A program made the translations under genes and the position numbers. Positions 2,798-42,699 of a DNA stretch of 45,263 nucleotides are shown one piece after another. Location of the stretch: the NCBI GenBank assembly GCA_902524955.1, contig CABZEY010000009.1, positions 1 to 45,263 of the forward strand, read 5' to 3'. Below the pieces are notes generated by a model that saw only the letters and a list, made by a program, of their open reading frames with translations, was not told the origin of the DNA and did no database searches. Position 1 is the stretch's first letter; every line of letters begins with the position of its first letter. Source of the DNA: an uncultured Pelagibacteraceae bacterium (GTDB taxonomy: Bacteria; Pseudomonadota; Alphaproteobacteria; Pelagibacterales; Pelagibacteraceae).

Positions 2798-3859
2798 TTA
2801 AGCAAGATCTCCATATTCTTTTATATGTTTTGGAATTCTTTGGTTGTCTCCATACATAAAATGGTTTTTCATATTCTCTTTATACTTAGAACCGCTTACT
2901 CTTAAACCAACAGCGTGTGCAACCTCTCGTATTAATGCTGGACTCGCACCACAACACACTCCTAGGTAATTGATACCTTTATCGTAAACTTCTTTTGAAA
3001 ATTTCGCGATTTCATATCTATTGCAATACAAAGGATCTAGGGCGGTTGGAAATGTTCTTCCATGTGGCGATTCGCACCCACACTCGTTAGATCTATCCGG
3101 AAGGTTAAAGAAAGTTTGATGTTTTATATTTGTTCTGTACGGTACGGGCAAAGCGGCTACATGACATTTTACGGCTTTCCTAATTTCAAGCACAAATTGC
3201 TTCATTGTATTCGGGCCCCTGAAACAATTCATACCAACTACATCAGCCCCACGTTGTTCCAATTCTTTACAGGTATCTACAATTGACCAGTTATCTCTCA
3301 TTTTATTTTCGCCCATTGGAGCAATAGTTATTACGGCAGGTAAATTTGTTTTTTTGATAATTTCTAAAGCTTTAAATGCTTCTTCTGCATAATAAAAGGT
3401 TTCACCAATCATAATATCTGCTTTTTCATCAACTGCCCACTGAGCCATTTCTGAAAACATTTTTTCTACTTCTAACTGAACCTTTTTATCATTTTCATTC
3501 CATATGTTTGAATTTGATATATTTCCTGCCATTAAATTGGGCTTAGGTTGATCTAAACTAATATTTGTTACCTTCCTTGCAATTTGCAAAGCCGCTCTGT
3601 TTAGTTTTTCTAATAAATGCTCTTTACCCGCAACTCTAACTTTTTCCCTATGAACATTGTAGGTAAAAGCTTGAACAATATCTGAACCTGCATGCTGAAA
3701 ATCTCTATGTAAAGCCTCAAGAACATCAGGCCTATCTAATGCTACTGTCGGAACGAATTCACCAGCTGATAAATAGCCCCTCCTTTCAATTTCAAATAAA
3801 AATCCTTCGGCACAAATTACTGGTCCTTGATTAAGTTTATCTATTAATTTGTTACTCAT
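2798..3859 (-). CDS. bhmT: Betaine-homocysteine S-methyltransferase family protein
   Basis: Transfers a methyl group from a donor (glycine betaine in characterised BHMTs) to homocysteine, making methionine. The zinc-binding cysteines of the homocysteine S-methyltransferase fold are visible as GMNC near the middle and GVCCGASP near the C-terminus. The frame is open back to 3931, but I chose the ATG at 3859, which gives 353 aa. It lies 8 nt after a strong AAAGGAG (3868-3874), and the 24 residues upstream look unlike the family and coincide with an RNA hairpin. The gene sits behind tandem SAM-II and SAM-V-type riboswitches, which fits a methionine-synthesis gene shut off by SAM. Use of betaine specifically is inferred from that leader and from the SAR11-like background. 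Confidence 0.9.
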   Translation of the reverse strand: MSNKLIDKLNQGPVICAEGFLFEIERRGYLSAGEFVPTVALDRPDVLEALHRDFQHAGSDIVQAFTYNVHREKVRVAGKEHLLEKLNRAALQIARKVTNISLDQPKPNLMAGNISNSNIWNENDKKVQLEVEKMFSEMAQWAVDEKADIMIGETFYYAEEAFKALEIIKKTNLPAVITIAPMGENKMRDNWSIVDTCKELEQRGADVVGMNCFRGPNTMKQFVLEIRKAVKCHVAALPVPYRTNIKHQTFFNLPDRSNECGCESPHGRTFPTALDPLYCNRYEIAKFSKEVYDKGINYLGVCCGASPALIREVAHAVGLRVSGSKYKENMKNHFMYGDNQRIPKHIKEYGDLA

Positions 3860-3880
3860 ATTTTTTTCTCCTTTAATTTT

Positions 3881-3935
3881 GGAGAAAGTTGAACAAATAC
3901 AAACATAGGAGAATAAAGATTTGTTCAACATCTCC
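3881..3935 (-). promoter_or_regulatory. Hairpin between the SAM-V aptamer and the bhmT start
   Basis: On the minus strand, GTTGAACAAAT (3919-3929) is perfectly complementary to ATTTGTTCAAC (3888-3898). The stem can be extended by pairing the SAM-V-borne GGAGA (3931-3935) with TCTCC (3881-3885). The loop contains TTCTCCT, complementary to the second ribosome-binding site AGGAGAA just downstream. A leader ATG at 3929-3931 abuts the first AAGGAG with no spacer and is in frame with bhmT. The structure could therefore mask one or both ribosome-binding sites. The pairing is seen directly; the regulatory role is inferred. Confidence 0.5.
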
Positions 3936-3987
3936 TTTTTAGTACTTTGGCATATGCCGGGTGTACAATACGGTTCAAATACCCAGG
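3932..3987 (-). promoter_or_regulatory. SAM-V-type riboswitch aptamer
   Basis: The minus strand contains TTTGAACCGTATTGTA followed by GTACTAAAAAGGAG. This is the conserved pseudoknot core of SAM-V, which resembles SAM-II. GGGT (near 3981-3984) can pair with ACCC (near 3960-3963) to form P1, and GTAC/GTAC form the second pairing. A perfect GGCATATGCC palindrome makes a small accessory hairpin. The aptamer ends exactly on AAGGAG, so SAM binding would hide the ribosome-binding site, the translational mechanism known for SAM-V upstream of bhmT in SAR11. It follows a SAM-II element and terminator on the same transcript. Confidence 0.85.
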
Positions 3988-4006
3988 TTTTTTTGTGAAA
4001 ATGGTC

Positions 4007-4037
4007 AAAAAAAAACCACCGGCTAAAGCGGTGGTTA
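4007..4037 (-). terminator. Intrinsic terminator of the SAM-II switch
   Basis: On the minus strand AACCACCG - CTTTAGC - CGGTGGTT forms an 8-bp stem followed by a run of T, a textbook rho-independent terminator. The terminator loop and stem segment CGCTTTAGC is perfectly complementary to GCTAAAGCG at the 3' end of the SAM-II aptamer just upstream (around 4044-4052). The antiterminator pairing and the SAM-bound pseudoknot are therefore mutually exclusive, which explains how SAM would switch termination on. Confidence 0.85.
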
Positions 4038-4042
4038 TAAGT

Positions 4043-4097
4043 TCGCTTTAGCTGGATTTTTATAGCGCCCGCAATTTGATAAAATCAGCGCTGAAAT
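4043..4097 (-). promoter_or_regulatory. SAM-II riboswitch aptamer
   Basis: The minus strand reads AGCGCTGATTTTA, then AAATTGCGG, GCGCT and CCAGCTAAAGCG. This matches the SAM-II pseudoknot: P1 is AGCGCT (4087-4092) with GGCGCT (4064-4069), the conserved CTGATTT follows P1, and AGCTAAA forms the 3' pseudoknot strand. It is followed within about 10 nt by an intrinsic terminator whose 5' arm region competes for GCTAAAGCG. Known SAM-II elements sense S-adenosylmethionine and repress methionine-biosynthesis genes in alphaproteobacteria. Confidence 0.85.
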
Positions 4098-4099
4098 GA

Positions 4100-4128
4100 G
4101 TGATATACTGAAAAATATTTTTTGTAAA
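4100..4128 (-). promoter_or_regulatory. Putative promoter of the bhmT leader
   Basis: On the minus strand TTTACA (4123-4128) is followed after 15-17 bp by TATATC/TATCAC (4100-4107), a weak sigma-70-like pair. It is placed so that transcription would start just before the SAM-II aptamer. Position is the main argument; in such AT-rich DNA the motif alone is not strong. Confidence 0.35.
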
Positions 4129-25112: not shown

Positions 25113-25123
25113 ATAATTATTTT

Positions 25124-25155
25124 AAATTGGGGAGTAAACTCCCCAATTTATTATT
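25124..25155 (+). terminator. Attenuating hairpin between tctC and tctA
   Basis: AAATTGGGGAGT (25124-25135) and ACTCCCCAATTT (25138-25149) form a perfect stem with a tiny loop, followed by ATTATTTTT. It resembles an intrinsic terminator. Since the permease follows on the same strand only 20 bp later, partial read-through or 3'-end protection of tctC mRNA is the likely purpose. Confidence 0.75.
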
Positions 25156-42174: not shown

Positions 42175-42699
42175 ATGTCTAATGAATCAAACTTTGCGCC
42201 TGAAAAGTCAGGCGCAAAGTTTTTCCACCGAAAAGATTTGTACTTAGCTCTAGTGCTTGTAGCGTTTGGAGCATTTGTTTATTATGAAGCTGGTAAGTTT
42301 CCTCCAGCTCCTGCAGTTTTAGGAGACACAATCAATGCAGATGTTTTCCCAAAAATTTTAGTAGTAATTTTACTTTTTTTAACAGCAATTATTCCATTTG
42401 AATTTAAAATGACTCCAGAAAAAGTCGCTAAGATTGATAAAGATCGAGATCAAAAGACTCTTCCGATTACTTGGATTACAATTTTTTTATTACTTACAAT
42501 TGTTTTTTTAACAGATTTTCTTGGAGCAGTATTAACCATGTTTGTAATATGTCTACTTTTACCTCTTGTGTGGGGTGAAAAAAATTATGTGGCTGTTGCA
42601 ATTTATGCACTTTTATTTCCAGCGTTTGTCTGGTTTTTATTTAATCAACTTCTAGGATTATATTTTGCTCCTGGATTATTAGAGGTATTTTTAAAATAG
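42175..42699 (+). CDS. tctB: TTT small membrane subunit TctB, system 2
   Basis: A 174-residue protein with about four helices (LYLALVLVAFGAFVYYEAG, ILVVILLFLTAIIPF, a long middle one, and the C-terminal AIYALLFPAFVWFLFNQLL). This is the TctB layout. The ATG at 42175 has no clear ribosome-binding site, and codons ~6-17 coincide with a 13-bp perfect hairpin plus T-run. An in-frame TTG at 42238 just before the first helix is an alternative start. It is followed after 2 bp by tctA. Confidence 0.85.
   Translation: MSNESNFAPEKSGAKFFHRKDLYLALVLVAFGAFVYYEAGKFPPAPAVLGDTINADVFPKILVVILLFLTAIIPFEFKMTPEKVAKIDKDRDQKTLPITWITIFLLLTIVFLTDFLGAVLTMFVICLLLPLVWGEKNYVAVAIYALLFPAFVWFLFNQLLGLYFAPGLLEVFLK
42189..42224 (+). 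terminator. Terminator-like hairpin inside the start of tctB
   Basis: AACTTTGCGCCTG (42190-42202) and CAGGCGCAAAGTT (42209-42221) are perfectly complementary around a 6-base loop, followed by a short T-run. It is positioned like the attenuating hairpin after tctC in system 1, but here it falls within the predicted coding start of tctB. It likely limits transcription into tctBA or protects the tctC mRNA end. Confidence 0.7.

Follow-up and report, generated by a model that had tools for sequence, protein, structure and literature searches.

The bhmT leader of an uncultured Pelagibacteraceae bacterium (contig CABZEY010000009.1; the whole stretch of 45,263 nucleotides analysed here is called the window) raises the question of how a SAM-V riboswitch can control a gene that starts well away from its aptamer. 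The SAM-V hit scores 68.8 bits, above the gathering threshold of 41, and the family-like start of bhmT at 3859 is 70 nt past the motif; for direct occlusion of the ribosome-binding site, in contrast, a start codon within about ten nucleotides of the motif is expected (PMC2704228). SAM-V of the SAM-II/SAM-V tandem is reported to control translation through access to the ribosome-binding site (PMC9481103). The P. ubique bhmT SAM-V serves as a reference case for both tandem and SAM-V riboswitches. The elements concerned are as follows.

2798..3859, minus strand: bhmT (betaine-homocysteine methyltransferase), 353 aa, start at 3859
3929..3993, minus strand: SAM-V aptamer (RF01826), full length, model positions 1-66
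3972..3973, minus strand: CC of SAM-V, the P2a strand and proposed partner of SD1 GG when SAM is bound (PMC6061858)
3932..3935, minus strand: SD1, GGAG at the 3' end of SAM-V, putative decoy SD and anti-anti-SD strand; its CUCC pairing is invariant in all relay leaders (defined below)
3929..3931, minus strand: upstream ATG, in frame with bhmT via 24 codons, not conserved and probably not a start
3888..3929, minus strand: upper stem of P3, 11 bp (3929-3919 with 3898-3888; loop 3918-3899); relatives have equivalent stems of other sequence
3881..3935, minus strand: lower stem of P3, predicted ON state, GGAGA 3935-3931 with UCUCC 3885-3881 (constrained fold, -19.4 kcal/mol)
3881..3887, minus strand: UUUCUCC, shared anti-SD strand, potential partner of SD1 or SD2
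3865..3887, minus strand: P4 hairpin, predicted OFF state, UUUCUCC 3887-3881 with GGAGAAA 3871-3865 (constrained fold, -18.5 kcal/mol; also in the unconstrained fold)
3868..3871, minus strand: SD2, GGAG, predicted ribosome-binding site of bhmT, 8 nt before ATG 3859-3857

Judged from sequence and folding models, nucleotides 3935-3860 are very likely the expression platform of SAM-V, a translational one made of three strands, in which SD1 would serve as a decoy, namely an anti-anti-SD strand, and SAM would be the OFF signal. Without SAM, the GGAG of SD1 would be free to pair with UCUCC and to lengthen the 11-bp hairpin (P3); with P3 formed, the anti-SD would be occupied, SD2 (3871-3868) would stay open, and ATG 3859 would serve as the start for bhmT translation. 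Once SAM is bound, P2a would capture the GG of SD1, the lower stem of P3 would come apart, and the freed UUUCUCC would pair with SD2 (P4), turning translation of bhmT off. SD1 hence appears not to be the ribosome site of bhmT, the real site being SD2, about 60 bases further on; SAM binding would move the anti-SD, and ATG 3859 is presumably the start used.

A first-pass annotation of this DNA had described an 11-bp perfect hairpin between two SD sequences, the first of which adjoins an ATG without a spacer and in frame with bhmT through a 24-codon extension, the second being properly spaced before the family-like start, as well as a GGAGA:TCTCC pairing. All of these are borne out by the coordinates: the arms of the upper P3 stem, GUUGAACAAAU and AUUUGUUCAAC (minus strand), match perfectly over 11 bp, SD1 (3935-3932) abuts ATG 3931-3929, from which BhmT would have 377 instead of 353 aa, SD2 is 8 nt before ATG 3859, and the GGAGA:TCTCC pairing is conserved across relay leaders. 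The loop TTCTCCT had also been proposed to pair with SD2; UUCUCCU (3913-3907) is indeed complementary to SD1 and SD2 alike in the window, but this is not conserved, and native loop:SD1 and loop:SD2 pairs, which served as our negative control, matched no better than pairs swapped between leaders (p 0.56 and 0.16, respectively). A second partner of UUUCUCC 3887-3881, namely SD2, had been overlooked; the resulting 7-bp P4 hairpin, which closes SD2, is present in the minimum-energy fold of the window. While the fold of 3840-3929 has a z of -3.5, about 1.3 perfect 11-bp hairpins with a loop of 3-25 are expected per dinucleotide-shuffled window; the P3 hairpin by itself is thus not rare, and conservation of the layout becomes the decisive evidence. 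A poly-U tract after P3 was looked for in the window sequence and none was found, so that P3 is not a terminator. Further perfect hairpins of at least 11 bp are located at 25123-25150 and 42189-42222 of the window and are perhaps terminators.

BHMT relatives were collected from 397 genomes of the order by protein similarity search with no selection on the motif, and SD1, the anti-SD, and SD2 were found together in 16 of the 16 leaders with SAM-V spaced from the gene among type-1 bhmT loci for which upstream sequence was available; these 16 span the window's lineage and two other genera. The direct type, with the GGAG of SAM-V about 5-10 nt before the start, comprises eight bhmT leaders (L054, L061, L062, and L068-L072), and L048 and L057 have a SAM-II-like leader alone. 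Pattern searches anchored on SAM-V gave matches to the SD1/anti-SD/SD2 layout in 76 of 397 family genomes, 74 of 151 genomes of genus g5, and 17 of 399 in g2, and the reversed pattern gave no match in the wider scans. A single strand with complementarity to the aptamer side as well as to the SD occurs in the window and 57 further leaders (together, the 58 relay leaders), most of which came from the pattern requiring the layout. Stem sequences differ among the window, g5, and g2 with the layout kept, and SD2 is 5-9 nt from the start in relay leaders. On the BHMT tree, spaced and direct leaders are interleaved, relay leaders being found in the window's lineage, g5, and several g2 clades, and the relay label forces at least four changes. 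Furthermore, the relay platform is also found upstream of metY in g5, where a conserved 15-codon ORF (MNETIRETVRGKING and variants; L081-L112) that begins after SD2 runs 8 nt into the metY start and probably provides translational coupling to metY; metY of g2 is of the direct type. The platform and its conservation are well supported.

The BhmT protein of the window forms a long branch on the tree, and bhmT of this type was found in one of eight genomes of the genus that were compared, namely the window genome, and is absent from the other seven, which may reflect horizontal gain, or loss elsewhere. A separate BHMT scan of a collection of genome contigs returned only non-SAR11 relatives. In most bhmT leaders, L049, L050, L058, and L063 among them, the loop of P3 retains a C-rich motif such as CCCUC, for which a partner backed by covariation was not found.

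MAFFT alignments (A1 and A2) misplaced SD1 in several rows because the stems differ in length, and we thus used an anchored comparison instead, in which duplex energies of native arms were set against those of arms swapped between leaders in 15 representatives less than 85% alike. The P3 arms gave -18.7 kcal/mol as native and -13.2 kcal/mol as swapped pairs, a difference reached in none of 20,000 permutations, which leave relatedness in although the representatives were thinned; beyond the GGAG:CUCC core, the values were -9.1 and -5.0 kcal/mol (again 0/20,000). The lower core of P3 never varies, and the covariation hence rests on the upper stem. In the 21 g2 leaders, standard pairs occupy each of the first nine positions of P3 in 20 or 21 cases. 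P4 covaries more weakly, with a permutation p of 0.005 obtained on a row set in which the SD2 index is one or two off in some rows. The pairings of the strand exchange are accordingly supported by covariation, strongly for P3 and less so for P4.

Folding models, into which the aptamer pseudoknot enters only as a constraint on SD1, couple the two SD sequences tightly. The median cost of opening SD2 over the 58 leaders was 0.8 kcal/mol with SD1 free, 9.4 kcal/mol with GGAG held, and 7.1 kcal/mol with GG alone held, and holding SD1 changed SD2 opening more than 10-fold in all 58. The coupling in the window amounted to 7.5 kcal/mol as compared with 1.2 ± 1.4 kcal/mol in spacer shuffles, none of 100 of which reached the native value; in all 15 representatives, it was reached by 0-2 of 100 shuffles. 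A complement common to SD1 and SD2 also arose in 25-41% of shuffles (15 of 16 leaders), and it is therefore the energies, and not complementarity, that carry the point. The constrained ON (-19.4 kcal/mol) and OFF (-18.5 kcal/mol) folds of the window share the anti-SD bases and are close in energy, so that little ligand energy would be needed for switching. For the bhmT leaders of g5, the model favours the OFF fold by about 1.7 kcal/mol even when SAM is absent, and the ON state there would need co-transcriptional folding.

The first-pass annotation had made its reading depend on conservation of the hairpin and had called for a covariation check on SAR11 bhmT leaders; the stem is kept with different sequences, and its arms covary. 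Its suggestion that SAM-V works through a refolding of the region of the second SD is most likely correct, but the elements are better described as the expression platform of SAM-V itself than as the separate third regulatory layer originally envisaged.

A different role for SD1 would be to recruit the 30S subunit and hand it on to the start further down, a mechanism put forward for S. meliloti metA, where mutation of the SD within SAM-II abolishes translation starting 74 nt downstream (PMC9373788). P3 would indeed place SD1 near SD2, but loading at a distance explains neither a single strand complementary to both SDs nor a good SD2 with a spacing of 5-9 nt, and the metA result could itself come from a relay; we consider this explanation very unlikely for bhmT.

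Still less probable is that SD1 is the true site with ATG 3931 as the start, SAM-V blocking it as in metY and the hairpin and SD2 being incidental or a minor second start. This type of control is real elsewhere (metY of g2 and the eight direct bhmT leaders), the published model is of the same kind, and ATG 3931 is in frame with bhmT in the window. The GGAG and this ATG are, however, without a spacer, and the conserved anti-SD and covarying stem would stay unexplained. Moreover, no bhmT relay leader other than that of the window has an upstream ATG in frame, that of HTCC1062 being out of frame; throughout the bhmT leaders, an upstream ATG is otherwise absent, out of frame, or followed by a stop. 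Translation from ATG 3931 finds no support in other bhmT leaders, and an in-frame N-terminal extension of BhmT was rejected on this ground.

The direction of the switch in the platform driven by SAM-V is inferred from the aptamer. The bhmT SAM-V of HTCC1062 binds SAM in vitro, and the crystal-structure study of SAM-V proposed that SAM forms P2a, a pairing of two aptamer nucleotides with the first bases of the SD (PMC6061858). If SAM-bound SAM-V thus pairs the GG of SD1 in P2a, SAM should turn translation off by relay, which would fit the increase in BhmT seen in HTCC1062 when sulfur is limiting (PMC5069961). Of 57 distinct relay leaders, 56 have CC as the P2a strand, matching the GG of SD1; 29 of 34 direct leaders have CU, mostly with one extra A before GGAG. 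This difference is confounded with gene and lineage. P3 and P4 acting independently of SAM, as an RNA thermometer or an mRNA-stability hairpin, is highly improbable; P4 closes an SD and P3 is stable, but throughout these leaders, all of which contain SAM-V, the anti-SD is just as much a partner for SD1 of the aptamer, and P2a turns to CC along with the layout. Control by a leader peptide, with a short ORF from SD1 being translated and its ribosome opening or closing SD2, is scarcely to be expected: an ATG is within 12 nt of SD1 in 44 of the 58 relay leaders, but the other 14 have none, the ORFs vary in frame, length, and stop (2 to 55 codons outside the window), and loop lengths change by non-multiples of three. 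An upstream leader ORF was hence rejected as a functional unit, not being conserved.

Translational riboswitches with an exchange among SD, anti-SD, and anti-anti-SD strands include the TPP riboswitch thiM and btuB. As in these, the ligand is predicted to decide occupancy of the anti-SD in the SAM-V relay, but the anti-anti-SD of the window would be the SD-like sequence at the 3' end of the aptamer itself. The direct SAM-V of metY (RF01826, PMC6061858) has the same aptamer, in which SAM holds the start of the SD via P2a, and is likewise a translational OFF switch; its GGAG is nonetheless the ribosome site, with the start a few nucleotides on, whereas the GGAG of the window would control a second SD via the anti-SD.

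The tandem of HTCC1062 bhmT (PMC11508383, PMC9481103) has the same gene and order of elements as the window. We identified this leader as L052 by SAM-V coordinates matching those in PMC2704228, and it has the relay platform; in the published model, however, SAM-V acts directly on the ribosome-binding site. Calorimetry of bhmT SAM-V was done on a 52-nt RNA (PMC6061858), and a 177-nt "full-length" riboswitch RNA has been probed (PMC11508383). The three primers of the latter study, when placed on L052, agree on position 1. The RNA then ends exactly with an AUG at 175-177, its last base being the G; this AUG begins a 23-codon ORF in a different frame from bhmT, the start of which is at position 233 in this numbering. 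The anti-SD and SD2 are therefore outside the construct. Direct occlusion is thus the published reading for bhmT SAM-V, and the relay platform predicted here would lie beyond the 177-nt RNA. If the relay is true, the SD-like sequence in the reference bhmT SAM-V is not the ribosome site of the gene, the "full-length" construct of the 2024 study is without the switching part, and the direct-occlusion model needs to be restricted to the direct type. Direct and relay platforms on one aptamer would then offer a natural comparison, with CC or CU in P2a as a testable sequence rule for relay or direct control.

It is doubtful, albeit conceivable, that the SAM-II/SAM-V superfamily has, in relay via a decoy SD, a second mode of general occurrence, gained or lost repeatedly, which would also explain the puzzle of S. 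meliloti metA. The metA leader resembles the window in having an SD inside the riboswitch and a start 74 nt downstream, but differs in that it is a SAM-II with an intervening terminator and a proposal of ribosome loading (PMC9373788).

Upstream of SAM-V, the window has two further elements.

4027..4101, minus strand: SAM-II (SAM-alpha) aptamer, the upstream member of the tandem (RF00521, 28.8 bits, E 1.4e-4)
4007..4034, minus strand: intrinsic terminator of SAM-II, recognised by complementarity and fold

The SAM-II score is below the gathering threshold of 36 bits, the E value being that for a short stretch; the order SAM-II, terminator, and SAM-V recurs in relatives. A perfect 9-nt complementarity links the terminator strand CGCUUUAGC (4030-4022) with the SAM-II strand GCUAAAGCG (4052-4044), and by sequence and fold the terminator is exclusive with this aptamer strand; the SAM-II terminator thus appears to use the same strand-exchange logic as SAM-V. 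With the linker included, SAM-II of the tandem fails to bind SAM (PMC11508383), a loss of binding that the complementarity between GCUAAAGCG and CGCUUUAGC may explain. A class-wide search of SAM-II leaders gave mostly terminators; in one SAM-II leader (L157), GAGG in the aptamer is followed downstream by GCCTCCAG and CTGGAGG, a possible relay of SAM-II.
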